The notes under the pieces: model-generated
Databases searched by the model: none
Seen by the model: the letters and a program-made list of their open reading frames with translations, nothing else
Told to the model about the DNA's origin: nothing
Source of the DNA: Amoeboaphelidium occidentale
Lineage: Eukaryota; Aphelidiomycota; Aphelidea
Assembly (NCBI GenBank): GCA_023515795.1
Contig: JALGPX010000002.1
Span: 96,293-160,292 of the forward strand
DNA length: 64,000 nt
Direction: 5' to 3'
Shown here: positions 2 through 37,458 of the stretch, piece after piece
Layout: the number at the start of each line of letters is the position of its first letter
Numbering within the stretch: position 1 is the stretch's first letter
Made by a program: the position numbers and the translations under genes

Positions 2-184
2 AAAGCCGAAGAGAAATGCGAAGATCCATCAAAGACACCGACCTCTCAACCTCCAAAGTCACCAACCTCTACATCTCCAGAGTCACCAGGAAAACCTGAA
101 GACAAGCCATGCGATGCAGACTCAATTCAAAAGGAAGCTATTCAACTTTTCATGAAGGAGAAGGCTACCTCTACAAAACATTAA
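2..184 (+). CDS. 3' end of a Pro/Ser/Lys-rich protein (partial)
   Basis: An open frame enters from the left edge and stops at TAA 182-184, giving 60 visible residues. They are rich in Pro, Ser, Thr, Glu and Lys (PPKSPTSTSPESPGKPEDK), carry two isolated Cys, and end in a charged helical tail (KEAIQLFMKEKATSTKH). The composition, including a KCEDP motif, closely resembles the C-terminal parts of the secreted proteins at 1221-5377 and 5774-8968; KCEDP itself recurs near the C-terminus of the latter. I infer a third member of the same secreted low-complexity group. No domain is recognisable and the start lies outside the window. Confidence 0.6.
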   Translation, partial: KAEEKCEDPSKTPTSQPPKSPTSTSPESPGKPEDKPCDADSIQKEAIQLFMKEKATSTKH

Positions 185-263
185 TAGGAATTTACAAAGT
201 CAAATTACGGATCCAAAAATAAATCTTAATTAAATTTAACTTCAAATCGTTCTACTTAGCAAA

Positions 264-956
264 ATGTATGACTGGGGTGCAGTGTTAGAAGAAGATCTGG
301 TGTATACTGTAAGACCCAGCTTCGAGAATCCTCTGCATATGATCATACAGCAAAGTTCCGATGATGGAAATGTCAAGATCGCTACATGCTTCCATAAAGA
401 TCGAAGCATCATAATTTCTGATGCATTTGGGAGGTTCAGTGACTCTATTGATGGCGAATCTACTTTGGCTAAATTGGATACAAGTTCTACAGACGGTACC
501 AAGATTAAGTCGCAGGTGTGTGATAATATCAAGATCCAAGTCAATATGGTATCAAGCACTGGCCCAGAACTTCTATTAGAATCTCCTCAAGACGAAGAAC
601 CACGCTTTCCTATTAAAGTCAGGAAATCATCATTCTTGTCGAGAAATGTGTTCGCAAAACCTTGTACAGATGATCAAGCATCGGATAATGTCATGTTCCA
701 GATTTCTGGAGGAAGGTCAGGTAATTTAAGGATCAAGAAAGGAACTCCGATGAAGCTCATCCCTGCGATATTTGCTTCGTGGAGATTGTACCTCAGATGT
801 CTCAGAATCTTTGTGATGTCTTTGTTCATAATTGATGCGATTCTCATAGCGAGTCTTTTGTACGCGACTTATCTCACTGGTAATCAGCTTTTCTTTGGCG
901 TTCTGGTTGCTGTGCACTTCGTATATGTATGTGTTGCGTTCTTACTTCTAGTTTAG
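264..956 (+). CDS. hypothetical two-TM protein, 230 aa
   Basis: Single-exon gene with an ATG at 264 in an A-rich context. Residues 1-170 are soluble, mixed-charge and without a recognised domain. Residues about 175-230 form two hydrophobic helices separated by a short loop (TYLTGNQ), ending at the C-terminus (CVAFLLLV), so it is probably a membrane hairpin with a cytosolic N-terminal domain. It sits among genes for secreted low-complexity proteins but lacks a signal peptide. A 14-bp palindrome overlaps the stop codon (955-968) and an AATAAA follows at 979. Function unknown. Confidence 0.6.
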   Translation: MYDWGAVLEEDLVYTVRPSFENPLHMIIQQSSDDGNVKIATCFHKDRSIIISDAFGRFSDSIDGESTLAKLDTSSTDGTKIKSQVCDNIKIQVNMVSSTGPELLLESPQDEEPRFPIKVRKSSFLSRNVFAKPCTDDQASDNVMFQISGGRSGNLRIKKGTPMKLIPAIFASWRLYLRCLRIFVMSLFIIDAILIASLLYATYLTGNQLFFGVLVAVHFVYVCVAFLLLV

Positions 957-24661: not shown

Positions 24662-26573
<1,912 letters not shown>

Positions 26574-27008: not shown

Positions 27009-30000
27009 ATGATCAATTTTCTTCCGTTGGAGCTTCTGGCTTTCGCTTTCACTTTCGATCTCTTCCAGTCTCTGCAGCATGAGAAGAGCTTTTATGTTCA
27101 GGAAGAGCTGAAAGGAATCGACAAAATTGACTTCTATTCCGGTTCTATTCTGATCAATACTGAGAATGATGTGATTCAGAGGGATCTTGTTACAGGTGCA
27201 GTGCAAAGGACATTCAGAGCACACACAAATATAGTCTCTGGTTTTACTGTTGTTAATGGATCCGCAATGATCACTATTGGCTTTGATCTTCAGTTAATCC
27301 TATGGGATTTGGTTTCAGGATCGATCACCAAGAGGATCGGGCTAGGATCAGAAGCTACAACACCGCTTTGTATTGCAGTCGCTGATAACATGGCTTACAT
27401 TGGTACTCGTAATTACAAAGTTCTCAAAGTTGATTTGATATCTGGCAGAACTTTGAGGATCAGAGATTTGGGTAACGCCGTCCTCACCTTGTCTCTCTCA
27501 TCAGAGGACCTGTACGCTGGTGGTCAGTTCTTTCCTTTGGCGCAAAAGCTTGATTTGAATACACTCGAAACGGTGCAAAACTTTAATGGCCACGATAATA
27601 CGATCTCTCAGCTAACTTACTATCGTGGTGTGCTTTACACATGTTCTGCAGATACGAGAATGTTTGCCTTTAATGTTGAAACTGGCAGCATTCTTAAAAC
27701 ATTTATTGGCAACCTAGTCTGGATTACTAGTGTCATGGCCAATGGAAGCAATTTGTACTCCGGAAATTCATTGGGTCATTTGATCCATTGGGATATTGAT
27801 ACTGCAGAAATTATAAATCAATTTCCTGCATATCATGGTGGTCAGATTAATAATCTCGTTCTGTATGATGGCTCCTTGTTCTCATCGTCTTACAATGTGG
27901 TGGCTCGCTGGAATATTGTATCGTACACGTTAGAGTCCAGTTATCAAGGCAGAGTACGCTCATTAAACGCCGTTGTTGTCTGGAAAAACTACGCCGTGGG
28001 GGCTGGCTCCGCTGGAATCATAAGTTTTTGGGATTCCGAAGCTAAGACCTTTGAGCCTACATACTCATTGTCTGGCCAGACTGGTGGAATCAGCGAAATG
28101 TATGTACTTGATGACATATTATACACTGCTGATTTTAACCGCATAAGAAAGTGGGATCTTGGACAGTTTGTGATTGAAAAGTCAATATTGGTTCCAACGA
28201 GTTCTGTTACAAGTTTATTCGCTCGTGAGGAATCAGTATTTGCTGGCACTTTTGACGGTAATTTCAGGAAATGGAACTCGTCATCAGGCGATTTGATACA
28301 CGAGTTTAAACTTCATGTTGAGACCGTCTCAGATATTGAATACTACACAGATGTCCTACTTACATCAAGTTTCGATTTCTCGATTGCATGGTGGAATCCG
28401 CGTGATTACTCGTTAATTATGAAACAGCCTGCCCCCTCATTTCAGCTGAATCGCATTTTCATTGCTGAAGATGTTGTCTACGCATGCGGCTTTGAATTAA
28501 TGTCTTTTGACTTTACAACTGGTGAAAGATTCAACATTTTGTACATTAATGATTATTGCTACGATCTTACAGGACAGCCAACTTTCTTGATCCTAGCCAG
28601 TGCTGATACGACGATTCAATTGCGAAACCCACAAACTTTTGAAGTTTTCACGTCCCTTAAAAACTCACAAGCGTCTGCATTGTGCTCGGACGCAAACAAT
28701 ATACTTTACTCCGCTGGAACTGACGGTGCTATCAAGAAGTGGAACTTGGACTCCAGATCTATAGCCTTCTCGTTTGAGGGTATGCTTGATTGATATAAGA
28801 CTGATTTTAGATCTCAGCGACGCTGTTACTTCACTTGCTTCTAACAGCGTAGATTTGCTGGTTGGTTTGCGCCGTGGTGTGCTCCAAAAATATGATACGG
28901 AAAGCGCTGTTTACGTAGAAGGAAAAAAATTGTTCGATGGGAAAATTGTTTCGATAGCTCAAAAAGACGATTCGATATTGACGTTTGGTCAGAATGGAAT
29001 CGGCTCAAGTCACTCCCTGAATGGGCTTGACTTAGAGTATATTTGTTACAATGATACTTCGGCACCGTTGATATCAGTTGCTTTCCACGCAAACATTGTG
29101 TTTCTTTTGAGGGGAGAAAATGAAATTATCGCATTGAATTCATCAGGGTTGTATCCGCCACTTTGGAAAATTCAGTCCACATTCGCTTTGACTTGTCTTG
29201 CCGCAACTGAGTCTCAGATCTTTGCGGGTACAAAATCAGGGCGTATATTTGGTTGGGATAATGCGGATCAGCAAGCCTCGTTTGAAGTAACGAAACAGAC
29301 AGCTAGCATCAATTTTTTGCTTGCGGATGAAGATGTTTTGCACTCCGCGTCGGACGATAATACTATTGTGCAATGGTCAATTGGTTTGAGTGCAGTGCTG
29401 AACACGCTGACGAGAAGCTCTGCGACTGCACTTGGTCATCTGGGACCTGTAAATTCTTTAAGTCTTTGTAATAATGTGCTTTTTTCAGCTGGGTCGGACT
29501 TGACTGTGAGGAGATGGAACGTTTTCAACGGCAAGCACGAGGACCTTTACTTTGGCCATGCGAGGAAGGTGAATGTCGTTCTATGCCACAATGGTTCTGT
29601 CTTTTCTGGTGGTGATGATTTCGCCGTGCTGCTTTACAAGCCGACACTTCCGCAAGCGATTGTGAAGAAAACCACGACATTAATTGGAGCTGCATCCTCC
29701 AAAGCTCAAAGAAACATAAAGAGAGTGACTGCCCGTGTAGATTCCGCATACTCTCTGCCAGTTTCTTTGATTATCATTCCCAGTTTCGCTGCGGGATTTG
29801 TCATCATATTTCTTCTGGCTCTTGTATGCTGGCTAAGAAGAAAGGATTCAAATGCAACCACAAGCCCCTTGGACTCTATGGCGAAATCCGTAGTGACGGA
29901 CTCAGAAGCTACAAATACTAACACAATGTTAAGAACGCTGGTTCCAACGACTATGGGTCTTTCTATGCACGCCCAACTTGAAATTAATCCAGTATATATT

Positions 30001-30651
30001 TCCAGAGGAACCTTGTTGGCCAAGGGCGGCGGTGGCTATTTGTACAAAGCAAAACTAATGGGGCAGGATCTGATTGCTTTACACGGCGAGAATGTTGTTC
30101 AAAAACTTGTAACTGTATCTGGAAGATCTGTGAGAGAATCATTTGACCAAGAGGTTGCCATTATGGCCATGTTATCCACGTTTCCTCATTTCTGTAAGCT
30201 AGTTGGATACACTCTGAACCCGTTGTCGATGATTCTAAAGTACTACCCTTCAGGTTCTTTAGATGGATGGATAACCAGACATACTTATGGCAAGAGGGTT
30301 GCTTTCCAACTGGTATATGAAGTATCAATGGCTGTTTCCATAATGCATTCTCATTTTCTTGCACACTGCGATTTGAAAACTCAGAACGTTCTTGTTGAAT
30401 CTAAGGATGGAGCTATTCATGCTTATTTAACCGATTTTGGAATAACACAGGTTCTCTCAGAGAAAATTCTAGCTGCAAAGCTATTTAGCGTCATTAATCT
30501 GCGTGGCTTATCTGTCCGCTATGCATCACCTGAAGCATTCCGTGCATTCAAAACTAAAGATTATACCAAATCAGACTTCAAAATGTATGATATCTACTCT
30601 TTGGCATGCGTCATGGTGGAATTACTGACACGTAAATTGCCGTGGAGCTGA
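27009..30651 (+). CDS. WD40-ectodomain receptor-like protein kinase, copy 1
   Basis: Exons 27009-28779 and 28811-30651 (31-nt intron) encode 1,203 residues. A short hydrophobic leader precedes about 21 WD-like blades (e.g. LILWDLVSGSI, LIHWDIDTAEI, IRKWDLGQF, RKWNSSSGD, IFGWDNAD, VQWSIG, VRRWNVFNGKH), enough for three seven-bladed propellers. A single TM helix follows at about 907-931. The kinase has LAKGGGGYLYKAKL (glycine loop), VVQKL (lysine), FDQEV (helix C Glu), HCDLKTQN, TDFG and YASPEAF, so the core residues are intact. It stops right after TRKLPWS, before helices G-I. I infer a type I surface receptor with a cytoplasmic kinase; the ligand is unknown. Confidence 0.75.
28780..28810 (+). 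other. 31-nt intron at a position conserved with the paralogue
   Basis: GTATGC...TTTTAG interrupts the FSFE|D codon. The paralogue at 32545-32575 has an intron of the same length, phase and position, so the intron predates the duplication. Confidence 0.85.
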
Positions 30652-30687
30652 TCAGTAACATTCTCAAGAATTATGACATGAGTGTGA

Positions 30688-30693
30688 AATAAA
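30688..30693 (+). terminator. poly(A) signal, kinase copy 1
   Basis: AATAAA lies 37 nt after the stop and is followed 13 nt later by the 18-nt element shared with copy 2. Confidence 0.6.
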
Positions 30694-30705
30694 TGTGTCT
30701 TTTTA

Positions 30706-30723
30706 TTGTACCACGAGCTGTTT
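30706..30723 (+). repeat. 18-nt element shared by both kinase 3' flanks (copy a)
   Basis: TTGTACCACGAGCTGTTT occurs identically here and at 34468-34485, each time shortly after the AATAAA of a receptor-kinase gene. Flanking sequence is much less conserved. Confidence 0.6.
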
Positions 30724-30734
30724 GCATCAATTAG

Positions 30735-33700
30735 ATGCCTCATACCAGATGTATGTACGAAAGATGGCCTCTTGTTTGCATCATGGTCACAGTAGCTCTG
30801 CTTGTACTTTTGGCTTTTGCCTTTACTCCTTCCAAGCCTTTGCAACATGAGAAGAGTTTCTATGTCCAAGATGAATTAAAAGTTGCTGATCACATTGGCT
30901 TTTACGGAAGATCTATCTTGATAAACACTGAGAATGATGTAATTCAGAGAGACCTTGTTACAGGCGCAGTGCAACGAACCTTCAGAGCACACACTAATAT
31001 TGTTTCAGCCTTTGTGGTCGTTGATGGATCTATCATGTATACTATTGGTTTAGATTTGCTGGTGGCTATATGGGACTTGGCATCAGGATCAATCATCAAG
31101 AGAGTCTTTTTAGGACCAGAAGCAACAGTGCCACTTTGTCTTGAAGTATTCAATGATAAGGCATACATTGGTACACAAAGTAACAAGATTATTATGGTTG
31201 ATCTCATTGCGGGTAGGACTATAATGGCAAGGGATATGGGCAGGGATGTCATGGCGATTTCTCGATTCTCAGATCATCTCTACGCAAGTGGTCAGTTTAC
31301 ACCTTTAGTGCAGAAATTGGATTTAAACACGCTTGAAACAATTCAATCTTACATAGGCCACAGCAGCTCGGTCTCTTATATTACTTTTAATCTTGGAGTG
31401 CTTTACACATGTTCGTCGGACACAAATGTCCTCGGATTTGATGTTGACAGTGGAATTATATTGAAATCGTTCATTGGACATGGTGTATGGGTCTCTTGTG
31501 CCGTTGCTGATGGAAGTAGTTTATACTCTAGCGATGATGCCGGTGAAATTATACATTGGGACATTAATACTGCGGAAATCGTAAGAAGATTTCCTCCGTA
31601 TCATTTACGCCAGATTGAGTATCTTGCCTTGAATGAAGGTTTTTTATTTTCATCAGCTGTGGGTGTTATAGCTCGGTGGAATCTCGCAACGTACAGCGTA
31701 GATTTTACTTATCGCGGTACATTAAATGCATTGAATGTTGTCGCTGTTTGGAAAAACTACGTTCTTGGAGCCGGCACAGAAGGAGTCATAAGATTCTGGG
31801 ATTCAGAAGCTAGATCCTTTGAGCCTGTTTACACATTGTCAGCTCAAAGTCGTAGTATTATAACTGCTTTTGTCACAGATGATACTTTGTACTCAGTTGA
31901 TTCTTCCCGTATAAGAAAGTGGGATCTTAATGCCTTTCTTATCACCATGACGATAACGGTTCCCACTGGCTCTGTGTCTAGTTTGTTTTACCAAGGAGAG
32001 TTCGTGTTCGCTGGCGCTACAGATGGCATGTTCCGAAAATGGAATTCATCAACAGGAAGCTTGGTTCACGAATTTGAGCTCCAAAGTATTGTTAACGAGA
32101 TTGGCTACTACAAAGACGTCTTGTTCACTGCAAGTACTGGCGAATTAGTCACATGGTGGAGTCACCAAGATTTTACCATTTTACTGCAAAAGGTTGCTCC
32201 TACGACCCGACTCAACCGCATATATATCAATAACGATGTAGTTTATGCATGTGGATTTAGTTTGGCTTCCCTTGATTCTACAACTGGTGAAACGTTAAAC
32301 TTTTTGGATCTTGGAAATTTTTGCTATGATATTGTGGGAACTGAAGAATATTTGATTCTAGCGACTGATGACACAAGAATTCAGTTGCGTGACCCTCAAA
32401 CTTTTGAAAGGTTTGCATCACTTCGAGACGCAAAAGCCATTTCATTGTGCCTGGATTCAAGCAATACTCTTTATTCAACCGGAAGCGAGGGCTCGATCAA
32501 AAGATGGAACTTGGAATCTAGATCCGTTGCCTTTTCGTTTGAAGGTGAGAATTTTCGCGTTATAACTTACTTTAGATCTGAATGGGGCTGTCACTGCGCT
32601 TGCTGTATATGGGCAAAAATTGTTGGTTGGTTACCGCCGTGGTGTAATGTACAGATTCGATCTAGAAACTGCGCTGTATGAAACTGGAAAGAAGTTGTAT
32701 GAAAATGCAATCGTTATAATATCTTTCTTGGACAATTCTATATTGACTTTTGGTCAGAATGGAATGGCTTCAACTCAATCCTTCGATGATTTTGTTTTGA
32801 AAGATGTGCTTTACGATAATCCTTCGTTGCCACTGCTTTCTGTTGCTTTGCTATCCGAACTTGTGATTATTTTGCGAGGAGAGATTGAAATTTTAGCTTT
32901 TAACTCGTCTATTCCTGAGAATCCCTTGTGGAATATTCAGGCCACATCGCCATTGACTTGTATTGCTGCAACTGAATCTAGAGTTTTCGCTGGTACGAAG
33001 TCTGGGCGTATATTTGGCTGGGACACTTTGAAACAGGAAGTTTTGTTTGAGATAACAAAGCAGACAGCTAGCATCAACTTTTTATTAGTCGATGGCGACA
33101 CTTTCTATTCTGCTTCAGATGATAAGACGATTGTTCAGTGGTCGATAAGATCGAGAACAGTGCTTAAAACCCTTATGAGAATTTCTGCTTCTGCGCTTGG
33201 CCATCTAGGGCCTGTAAATTACTTGACTATGTGTAACACTGTGTTATTTTCTGCTGGATCTGACTTGACCGTGAGAAGGTGGAACACTTTTACTGGTAAA
33301 CACGAGGACACTTACTTCGGACATTCAAAGAAGGTTAATGTTGTGATCTGCCAGAATGGCTCCGTCTTTTCGGGCGGGGATGATTTCGCTGTACTATTGT
33401 TCAGACCTATATTTGCATCCCCTGCCACGACAAGCACCACAGTTTCCCCAAAAACTTCTTCATCTGCGCTTCAAAGAATACTGAGACGAGTGACATCTCG
33501 ATCTGATTATTCAAATCGTCCAGGATCTTCTTTGATTGTACCAACCACGGTTGGTACAGGGATTCTTCTTTTGCTAATCACAGTTGCGTTTTACTGGAAG
33601 ATGAACGATGTGAATTACAAGACAAACCATACAGATTCCATTGCTCAGTCTGATATCACAGGCTCAGAAATTACGAATATCAATACTATGTTAAGAACAC

Positions 33701-34413
33701 TCGTCCCGACTTCCGTGGGGCTTTCCATTCATGCTCAACTTGAAATCAATCCTGCATATATCGCAAAGGAAATCCTGTTGGCTAAAGGTGGCGGTGGGCA
33801 ATTGTTCAAGGCAAAGCTGATGGATCCAACTTTGATTGCTTTACATGGCAGCCAAGTGGTTCAAAAACTTGTAAATCTATCTGGAAAAGCTGCACTGGAA
33901 TCCTTTAATCAGGAGGTTGCTATTATGACAATGTTATCAACTTTTCCACATTTTTGCAAGTTTATTGGATACACTGTGAATCCTATGTCGATGGTTTTGA
34001 AGTTTTATCCGGCTGGCTCACTAGATGGATGGATAACCAGAACTATTTATGGAAAGAGGGTTGCTTTTCAAATGATTCATGAGATTTCAAAGGCTGTCTC
34101 AATAATGCACTCTCATTTTCTGGCGCATTGCGACTTAAAAACTCAGAATGTGCTTGTGGAATCCGAAGGTGATAAGCTAAATTTCTGTTTGACTGACTTT
34201 GGAATTACGCAAATACTTTCAGAGAAAGTTCTAGCTACAAAGCTGTTCAGAATTACCAACATTCGTGGCTTATCGATTCATTATGCATCACCTGAAGCAT
34301 TTACCAGCTTTCGAACCAAAAATTACTCTAAAGCGGACTTCAAAATGTATGATATCTACTCTTTGGCGTGCATTATTACGGAAGCGCTCACAAGAAAGGC
34401 TCCATGGAACTGA
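30735..34413 (+). CDS. WD40-ectodomain receptor-like protein kinase, copy 2
   Basis: Exons 30735-32544 and 32576-34413 (31-nt intron) encode 1,215 residues, a tandem paralogue of the preceding gene. The leader is more convincing (VTVALLVLLAFAF), followed by LQHEKSFYVQDELK, which matches copy 1. About 21 WD-like blades follow, then one TM helix at about 920-942 (TVGTGILLLLITVAFYW). The kinase domain has LAKGGGGQLFKAKL, VVQKL, FNQEV, HCDLKTQN (Asp1123) and DFG at 1144-1146. The protein ends 69 residues after DFG at RKAPWN, exactly where copy 1 ends, so the short C-lobe is a family trait rather than a mutation. Likely a surface receptor; an adhesion or pheromone-like role is possible but unsupported. 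Confidence 0.75.
32545..32575 (+). other. 31-nt intron, kinase copy 2
   Basis: GTGAGA...CTTTAG splits FSFE|D, identical in position, phase and length to the intron of copy 1. Confidence 0.85.
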
Positions 34414-34454: not shown

Positions 34455-34467
34455 TGAACTGTGAAGG

Positions 34468-34485
34468 TTGTACCACGAGCTGTTT
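34468..34485 (+). repeat. 18-nt element shared by both kinase 3' flanks (copy b)
   Basis: Second copy of TTGTACCACGAGCTGTTT, 97 nt upstream of the next gene's ATG. It marks the right end of the duplicated unit. Confidence 0.6.
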
Positions 34486-34581
34486 CATAAATCAAGTCCT
34501 GTTGGCGCCGATCACAGTTCTCAAGGTGTCACAAAGTTCCATGTTGTGCTTCAAGAACAAGAAAGCAATTGTAACTTAACA

Positions 34582-35724
34582 ATGAAGGCTACTTTAGTCC
34601 ACACAATGAATGCGTATCTTATCTTTGTGTCTTTGGCAATGTTGGTTGCATTTGTTCCAGAGGTACACGCTCAAGGCTTCGTGTTTCCAGGACCATTCCC
34701 GCACGCCCCACATGTTGCACCAAAGAGTATTCCATCTCCTCCGTCTCTACCACCAGCTCCGCCAACGGGAACCGTTTCAGCCGGAACCCAAGCTTCAGCG
34801 GCTGTTCAGACAAAGAGCGAGACAACTCGAGTTGCAACTCCAGTCGCGTCTGCATTGCCTTCCAAGACTAGTGCATCTAGTAGTACAGCTACACCGACAA
34901 CGAAACCAGTTGATCTTCCAGTTAATCGTATTTTGAATCCTGGTGCAGGTGCTGCATCTGGTACAAACGGGACAATTAATAATGATCCTTCTGAGGAATC
35001 GAAGAAGAGCTCTGGTGTCATCATTCCAGCAGTCATTGGAGCATTTGCTGGCACCTTCGTTCTAAGTGGTGTATTGTTGGCATTCAAGAGAAGATCAAAC
35101 AACAAGAGTCGCTATGAGAGAAGAGGCAGTGAAGACGGTGGTGATGATCTATTCGTCCCAGAAGAAAGAATATCCGTTGCTGAAAGTCAGTACGAGTTTG
35201 GCAGAATGTCAACATATCAAGGAAAAGATCCAGCTAGGCAAAGCTCAATGTCTGAGCATAGCGTTGGCAATTCACCTCTGCTGAAATCGCAACTTTTGGA
35301 GATCCCTGAAGACAGACCTGTTTTCAGTTATTCAAAACCTAAATCCATATTCACAAACTCTTTCAGCGTATCAAGACCTCAAACTGCTGTTCCTGAAACA
35401 AGGCGCCAGACAGCTGATCCTCTTGTTCGTGTCTCTTTCGAGAGCGAATCTGCGTACACAGAATCTGTGCGTTCATCAAATACCTCTGAGAAAATGACGG
35501 ATTTTGCATCACGTTGGAGTTCACCCGGTGGTGCAGGTGCTCTTGGCGCTGGCGCTATGAAGAGAATTTCAACGGAATCCGACGAATGCACTTTGAATGT
35601 GACACCTTACCAGAGAGAACAAGAACAAAAGGCGGAACCAAAGGCCAGGAAGTCTTCATTTTTCGCAGCGCCTTTCGTTGGATTATCGTTCTTCAGCGAA
35701 GACACCGATTTCGTTGATGTTTAA
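34582..35724 (+). CDS. single-pass membrane protein, Ser/Thr/Pro-rich ectodomain, 380 aa
   Basis: From ATG 34582 the protein has an N-terminal signal peptide (about 1-30, core YLIFVSLAMLVAFVPEVHA). A Pro- then Ser/Thr/Ala-rich stretch of about 100 residues is probably O-glycosylated. One TM helix follows (VIIPAVIGAFAGTFVLSGVLLAF), then a basic stop-transfer (KRRSNNKSRYERR) and a 200-residue Ser-rich tail with possible phosphosites. The architecture recalls fungal wall-stress sensors such as Wsc/Mid2 proteins, but there is no Cys-rich WSC domain, so this is only analogy. It lies directly downstream of the receptor-kinase pair on the same strand; a shared surface role is inference. An in-frame upstream extension without ATG was rejected. 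Confidence 0.65.
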   Translation: MKATLVHTMNAYLIFVSLAMLVAFVPEVHAQGFVFPGPFPHAPHVAPKSIPSPPSLPPAPPTGTVSAGTQASAAVQTKSETTRVATPVASALPSKTSASSSTATPTTKPVDLPVNRILNPGAGAASGTNGTINNDPSEESKKSSGVIIPAVIGAFAGTFVLSGVLLAFKRRSNNKSRYERRGSEDGGDDLFVPEERISVAESQYEFGRMSTYQGKDPARQSSMSEHSVGNSPLLKSQLLEIPEDRPVFSYSKPKSIFTNSFSVSRPQTAVPETRRQTADPLVRVSFESESAYTESVRSSNTSEKMTDFASRWSSPGGAGALGAGAMKRISTESDECTLNVTPYQREQEQKAEPKARKSSFFAAPFVGLSFFSEDTDFVDV

Positions 35725-36708: not shown

Positions 36709-37458
36709 ATGTCAAGATCTTGTCTTAGGACACTTGCGACGAAACATTTTCCTGTGATCAGAAGTAGAAGTGTCATGCAAGTGGGAGATTCTGTAGCAAA
36801 AGGAGCAACATTGGAAGAAACTCACGTCCACAAAGTTTACGATGAAATCGCTGGACATTTCAGTCAGACGCGTTATAAACCATGGCCTGTCATTCAAGAT
36901 TTCCTGGAATCTTTACCTAGAGGATCTATAGTTGGTGATATTGGTTGTGGTAATGGAAAATATTCGGCAATTAATAAGGAGAATTTGTGTTATGTCGGCT
37001 GCGATCGTTCATTGGGTCTTTTAAGTCATGCTAAACAGCTACAACCTCATGCTGACTTTACGCTGTGTGATGGTCTGCGAACGCCGTACAAGTCTGAATG
37101 CTTTGATCATGTTATTTCTATTGCTGTTATACACCACTTTTCAACGCACGAGCGAAGGGTTGACGCTGTGCTGGAATTACTTCGAGTCCTGAAGAAGGGC
37201 GGAAGAATGTTGATTTTCGTATGGGCCTTTGAACAAACAGCGACAAGTAAACGAAAATTCGACTCACAAGATGTATTTGTTTCATGGAATAAGGCTGGCG
37301 TTGAAGAAGTTTTTTATAGGTACTACCACGTCTTCAAAGAAGGTGAACTAGGAGCGCTAGTCCGTGACGCTCTAGCAAAAGGTAATATGGAAGCAAGCAC
37401 GATAATTAAAACAGGTTACGATAGGGACAACTGGTACATTGAAGTCCAAAAAACGTAA
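36709..37458 (+). CDS. TRM9: Trm9-type tRNA wobble-uridine methyltransferase
   Basis: A 249-residue class I methyltransferase. It has HKVYDEIAGHFSQTRYKPWP at about 36, motif I VGDIGCGNGKY, CVGCD-like VGCDRSLGLL, motif IV CDGLRTPYKSECFD and IAVIHHFSTHERR, and it ends in the Trm9 YRYYHVFKEGEL...GYDRDNWYIEV signature. Trm9 with Trm112 makes mcm5U at tRNA position 34. The first 22 residues (MSRSCLRTLATKHFPVIRSRSV) are basic and acid-free and are not part of the family core, which could begin at Met23. This suggests alternative starts and possible mitochondrial targeting. The AlkB-domain gene that completes an ALKBH8 lies 1.3 kb away. Confidence 0.9.
   Translation: MSRSCLRTLATKHFPVIRSRSVMQVGDSVAKGATLEETHVHKVYDEIAGHFSQTRYKPWPVIQDFLESLPRGSIVGDIGCGNGKYSAINKENLCYVGCDRSLGLLSHAKQLQPHADFTLCDGLRTPYKSECFDHVISIAVIHHFSTHERRVDAVLELLRVLKKGGRMLIFVWAFEQTATSKRKFDSQDVFVSWNKAGVEEVFYRYYHVFKEGELGALVRDALAKGNMEASTIIKTGYDRDNWYIEVQKT

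Follow-up and report, generated by a model that had tools for sequence, protein, structure and literature searches.

Tandem receptor-like kinases with predicted WD40 propeller ectodomains and shortened kinase domains in the aphelid Amoeboaphelidium occidentale

The locus and the predicted ectodomain

Two genes, A and B, are arranged in tandem, head to tail on the forward strand, in a 64,000-nucleotide stretch of contig JALGPX010000002.1 of Amoeboaphelidium occidentale (Aphelida), and both were predicted to encode receptor-like kinases. The whole stretch is called the window here, and all coordinates without a contig label are window positions. Gene A (27009..30651; exons 27009-28779 and 28811-30651) encodes 1203 amino acids and gene B (30735..34413; exons 30735-32544 and 32576-34413) encodes 1215 amino acids, and the stop codon of A is 83 bp away from the ATG of B. 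One 31-nt intron was found in each gene (28780..28810 in A, 32545..32575 in B) at the identical place, between the second and third propellers described below. The two proteins are 60% identical. The ratio of nonsynonymous to synonymous divergence (dN/dS) between them was 0.17 for the ectodomain and 0.12 for the kinase, with a dS of about 1.7, which is near saturation; the two genes are therefore old and under purifying selection. A recent duplication was ruled out by this dS, and positive selection was not seen between A and B at a dS so near saturation.

An earlier reading made from the letters of the window alone (the sequence-only reading) had described about 21 WD-like blades per protein, making up three potential seven-bladed propellers, and the predicted structures bear this out. 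The AlphaFold2 model of the paralogue P0046 (1185 aa, mean predicted local distance difference test (pLDDT) score 82) contains 21 blades, a transmembrane helix at residues 895-920 and a kinase, and exon 2 of gene A modelled alone gave one complete propeller with the transmembrane helix and the kinase (mean pLDDT 78). In these models the repeats of about 40 residues form 7-bladed propellers, so that the repeat part is predicted to take the WD40 β-propeller fold and not a non-propeller fold, which would have spoken against that reading. The structural matches of the three P0046 propellers span residues 16-289, 300-569 and 4..854 (275 residues aligned in the last). Since the third match spans 4..854, the model suggests that the third propeller is closed by the N-terminal strand. 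For the P0046 model, the propeller of PkwA (5yzv) came first among the structural matches, tied with others. In Foldseek searches, designed 8-bladed propellers led by E-value (TMt 0.68), whereas the 7-bladed 5yzv gave a better fit (TMt 0.84, rmsd 2.0).

All 21 blades of P0046 could be placed on both A and B by alignment. Propellers 1 (27096..27947) and 2 (27948..28778) of gene A, with seven blades each, were located by alignment to the P0046 model, and propeller 3, also with seven blades (28811..29643), was modelled directly. The three propellers of gene B lie at 30864..31715, 31716..32543 and 32576..33408, by alignment. The domain order, blade count and intron position are the same in the two genes, as the sequence-only reading had stated. 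It had also spoken of an early-diverging fungus, and this has to be corrected: the organism is an aphelid, and aphelids, which live by invading algae, form a lineage sister to Fungi.

A kinase domain that ends after helix αF

The kinase of gene A (29980..30648), with a GGGG loop and the motifs VVQK, HCD, DFG and SPE, and the kinase of gene B (33742..34410) both end just past helix αF. The Pfam Pkinase profile matched strongly, but only over positions 24-198 of 263; many other kinases of the A. occidentale genome reach position 263. The fetched loci of the family contain 57 kinase open reading frames (ORFs), of which two were set aside in counting the ends, one because of a contig end and one because of an N in its tail. 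All 55 readable kinases stop 1-8 residues past the last Trp, just after helix αF, and 42 of them stop exactly one residue past it. Therefore, subdomains X-XI (helices αG-αI) are absent. The models of P0046 and gene A both terminate after helix αF, which is the final kinase element of P0046 (residues 1162-1179). This truncation was overlooked in the sequence-only reading; subdomains X-XI are missing from the predicted proteins.

The active site is well conserved. Among the 54 ORFs with enough sequence, the G-loop, the Lys, the αC Glu and DFG were kept in every one and the APE Glu in 53; the catalytic His, Asp and Asn were also present in all 54, but they were part of the search pattern. The catalytic loop is of the non-RD (non-arginine-aspartate) type, with HCD in 56 of the 57 ORFs and HSD in one; HRD and HGD would have been accepted by the search pattern as well. 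Compared with a eukaryotic protein kinase, the catalytic residues of subdomains I-VIII are present, whereas subdomains X-XI are not. Among solved kinases, a tandem EGFR entry came first, followed by RIPK2, then StkP and IRAK4.

A uniform end of this kind could arise in annotation, if an intron, a frameshift or readthrough joined a missing C-lobe to the kinase. Introns of 31 nt exist here, and a GT lies within 15 nt past the Trp codon in 25 of the 55 genes. However, no such GT was found in the other 30, no offset is preferred, all three kinds of stop codon follow the Trp, and 83 bp separate the stop of A from the ATG of B. Metagenome ORFs and NCBI models also share the end point. To these was added a search with a C-lobe profile in the three forward frames over up to 1.2 kb (median 1.1 kb) after the kinase end. 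The first profile, which included helix αF, gave four matches below 0.01 (best 2.3e-9), which we read as neighbouring kinase copies. The αG-αI profile without αF had no match up to an E-value of 1 downstream of the 55 genes; the 54 tails used to build it came largely from bacterial kinases, and recovering those tails (54/54) was its sole control, which is self-recognition only, so that a very divergent exon could escape it. In view of the uniform ends, the stop and GT pattern and the empty profile search, a missing 3' exon, a frameshift or readthrough is disfavored, and we consider such an artefact extremely improbable.

The kinase might be an inactive or nearly inactive ATP-binding scaffold, with the receptor recruiting a full kinase, as the loss of αG-αI in all 55 kinases and the empty downstream search would allow. 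Dead kinases usually lose their catalytic residues, whereas here these residues are kept in all 54 ORFs and the dN/dS of the kinase is 0.12. We regard a scaffold as possible but unlikely, and it would be compatible with a receptor.

Predicted membrane topology

The sequence-only reading had proposed a leader, a single transmembrane helix and an intracellular kinase, and this layout recurs in the family. Gene A starts with a weakly hydrophobic, signal-peptide-like stretch (residues 1-21, 27009..27071) and gene B with a signal peptide or signal anchor (residues 1-35, 30735..30839); the transmembrane helices lie at 29767..29844 and 33529..33606. Among 50 first exons examined, an ATG with a hydrophobic stretch after it (mean at or above 1.8) is present in 46; of the other four, one has no readable start and the rest reach 1.62-1.75. 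Of the 57 kinase ORFs, 50 had enough upstream sequence to look for a transmembrane helix, and one was found in each of these. Lys and Arg are more numerous on the kinase side of this helix in 42 members, equal in five and fewer in three. A sequon in propeller 3 (N851-G-S in gene A, 29590..29598; N864-G-S in gene B, 33355..33363) is conserved in 29 of the 30 sequences aligned, its middle residue being of eight kinds, and a second sequon occurs in 16 of the 30. The kinase part is poor in sequons, with 16 compared to 60 in the reversed sequences and 40 expected. The recurrence of the N-terminal stretch, the positive-inside transmembrane helix and the nearly invariant sequon together favor a signal or anchor function of this stretch. 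The predicted order of N-terminal signal stretch, ectodomain, one transmembrane helix and positively charged kinase side is that of type I receptor kinases, and we infer from it that the receptors are at the cell surface and glycosylated.

The same topology signals are equally compatible with the endoplasmic reticulum (ER) or a food vacuole. The proteins could then be sensors of the ER lumen or an internal vacuole, like IRE1 and PERK, whose luminal domains are also β-rich, rather than receptors of the plasma membrane. However, housekeeping sensors usually have few copies, and the 69 diverging close matches described below are hard to square with such a role, which makes an internal sensor improbable.

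Size of the family and its relatives

The genome copy searched amounts to 11.3 Mb, compared to a published total of 13.56 Mb (PMC10608142), and is hence incomplete. The kinase query gave at least 150 matches (150 of 210 candidates were scored), and the exon 1 query at least 83 matches (74 of 339 candidates scored). The top 69 kinase matches, with E-values at or below 4.2e-56 and at least 47% identity, are spread over 37 contigs, and 45 of them have a neighbor within 10 kb. In all 29 neighbor pairs both members are on the same strand, and the spacing is 3.7-4.5 kb in 18 pairs. The A/B pair is thus part of a large genome-wide family as judged by these matches. Several matches are in frames of about 190-340 aa and two pairs are less than 1 kb apart; therefore, some of the 69 are kinase fragments and not intact genes. 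These two pairs (C148:10680-12110 and C73:68063-69547) look like partial, kinase-only tandem duplications. Four kinase matches lie within very long frames, namely C177:13416-14084 (4694 aa), C15:8935-9576 (3198 aa), C203:4963-5262 (2354 aa) and C187:9865-10359 (2324 aa), which may be giant proteins or fusions carrying a kinase of this class. The mean identity over the 55 pairs among 11 long members is 58% for the kinase, and 38, 33 and 43% for propellers 1-3, respectively.

The full-length homologue search gave 32 matches, and only P0001, from A. occidentale, was close; the others are WD40 proteins with 20-28% identity, bacterial where NCBI names them. Another database search gave 34 matches, 14 from A. 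occidentale and 20 metagenome proteins. In total, 51 database relatives were compared, including the 14 A. occidentale proteins, which are partly the same genes as the genome set, and 48 of the 51 end 85-104 residues past the HxD motif. The exceptions are P0051 (whose model seems partial and fused), P0066 (24 residues past the Trp, without a C-lobe) and P0081. The last, from a metagenome, is a transmembrane kinase with a complete C-lobe, an SH3 domain and HRD, and could be an untruncated cousin for dating the loss of the C-lobe. The Trp is lacking at the ends of P0061, P0074 and P0075, and its place is taken by Phe in P0082. By eye, the models of P0051 (MP638_002839) and P0095 (MP638_004964) look like fusions of neighboring members or fusions with unrelated sequence.

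Kelch propellers precede related kinases in metagenome proteins and in a transcript (P0064, P0065 and P0074). For P0077 and P0079, propeller matches of the SBBP type scored under the curated cutoff, P0082 has WD40-like matches, and no ectodomain was recognized in P0075, P0076 and P0080; the transmembrane helices of all these relatives were judged by eye. P0074 ends slightly before the others and may be a transcript cut short; its EukProt tag is Partr. In PMC10406608, Partr is the tag for the aphelid Paraphelidium, and P0074 would accordingly be a Paraphelidium transcript. Because relatives carry Kelch ectodomains, the predicted receptor class reaches beyond WD40 proteins and, if the tag is read rightly, beyond one species.

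Bacterial WD40 and WD40-plus-kinase proteins among the weak matches, together with bacterial StkP among the solved ones, would fit gene transfer from bacteria, with WD40 Ser/Thr kinases as the source of the family. However, the two such proteins examined, P0004 and P0005, have the kinase at the N-terminus and WD40 at the C-terminus, which is the reverse order, RIPK2 outscores StkP, and the Paraphelidium transcript, as identified by its tag, joins a related kinase to a Kelch ectodomain. We consider a bacterial origin very improbable.

Three neighboring ORFs of the window were viewed by eye. The next ORF after gene B (34465-35724, forward strand) looks like a further membrane protein with a signal peptide, a Ser/Thr/Pro-rich outer part, a transmembrane helix and a cytosolic tail, a layout which we take to resemble that of fungal wall-stress sensors. 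A poly(A)-binding-protein-like ORF with RRM-type repeats lies at 24662-26224 on the reverse strand, and a class I methyltransferase-like ORF, with tRNA a possible substrate, at 36709-37458 on the forward strand.

A proposed receptor family and its known counterparts

From the anatomy, family size, truncation, active-site conservation and topology signals seen in sequences and models, we propose that A and B probably belong to a large aphelid family of type I membrane receptor kinases. The signal peptide would route the protein into the secretory pathway; the three WD40 propellers would form the glycosylated ectodomain outside, joined by one transmembrane helix to a non-RD, tyrosine-kinase-like (TKL-like, from the best PDB matches) kinase in the cytosol. 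The fast-diverging propellers would bind ligands, for example host-wall or environmental cues, and ligand binding would bring kinases together and start signaling. Since the catalytic residues are kept and yet the kinase ends just after αF, it is expected to work with a partner or as dimers instead of through its own full C-lobe, the partner or dimer compensating for helix αG and those after it, which normally bind substrate and support the C-lobe. Catalytic activity, kinase output and biological role would follow from this scheme, and the family may help the parasite to sense its surroundings or host.

Several observations weigh against this proposal. A kinase losing αG-αI is expected to be crippled. 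The ectodomain has no overall sequon enrichment (129 compared to 132 in the reversed sequences and 157 expected). The signal stretch of gene A is weak (1.59), lower than two propeller strands of gene B, and that of gene B may be uncleaved and kept as an anchor. The comparison of A and B also shows purifying selection only.

A bolder and rather unlikely version is that the receptors are incomplete by design: a partner or second receptor would supply αG-αI, so that the ligand completes the kinase in trans, while the outer propellers (WD40, Kelch and perhaps others) are swapped on a fixed kinase. Should the truncated kinases be functional, subdomains I-IX alone would suffice for signaling by a receptor kinase, and the 55 readable kinase ends offer many natural test cases. 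For an organism that invades algae, the family behind the 69 close kinase matches of the 11.3-Mb genome copy is a ready set of candidates for host recognition.

According to PMC10608142, aphelid receptor-like protein kinases have already been published (Mikhailov et al. 2022, Curr Biol). The A/B family may be among them and, as such, may already be known. In the titles and abstracts brought up by searches of the open literature, a scope that does not include Mikhailov 2022, nothing was found on WD40-ectodomain kinases in aphelids, on a three-propeller ectodomain or on a family-wide kinase truncation, and PMC6299283 does not mention kinase, receptor, WD40 or Kelch. Subdomains I-IX are generally conserved in all protein kinase-like (PKL) kinases, according to a figure legend of PMC1821047. 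The A/B kinase is likewise reduced to these subdomains, as in RIO, Bud32 and other PKL kinases. Unlike RIO and Bud32, which have no APE motif, the family keeps the APE Glu in 53 of 54 ORFs and matches Pkinase strongly.

The plant non-RD receptor kinases FLS2, Xa21 and EFR have a signal peptide, an ectodomain, a single transmembrane helix and a cytosolic non-RD kinase and belong to a large tandem family. The A/B family resembles them in its layout, in HCD replacing HRD and in its large tandem arrangement, but its ectodomain consists of WD40 propellers and not leucine-rich repeats, and its kinase stops just after αF. The receptor tyrosine kinases MET and RON carry a 7-bladed Sema propeller in the ectodomain. 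A 7-bladed propeller is thus common to both, whereas the A/B propellers are of the WD40 type and three in number, and the kinase is truncated and has no tyrosine-kinase assignment. Bacterial PkwA (5yzv), like A and B, combines a WD40 propeller and a kinase in one protein; its kinase is complete, unlike that of the A/B family, and two bacterial-type relatives (P0004 and P0005) have the reverse domain order. The TKL kinases RIPK2 and IRAK4 are among the best solved matches of the A/B kinase, and their chains continue past the point where both the match and the A/B family end.
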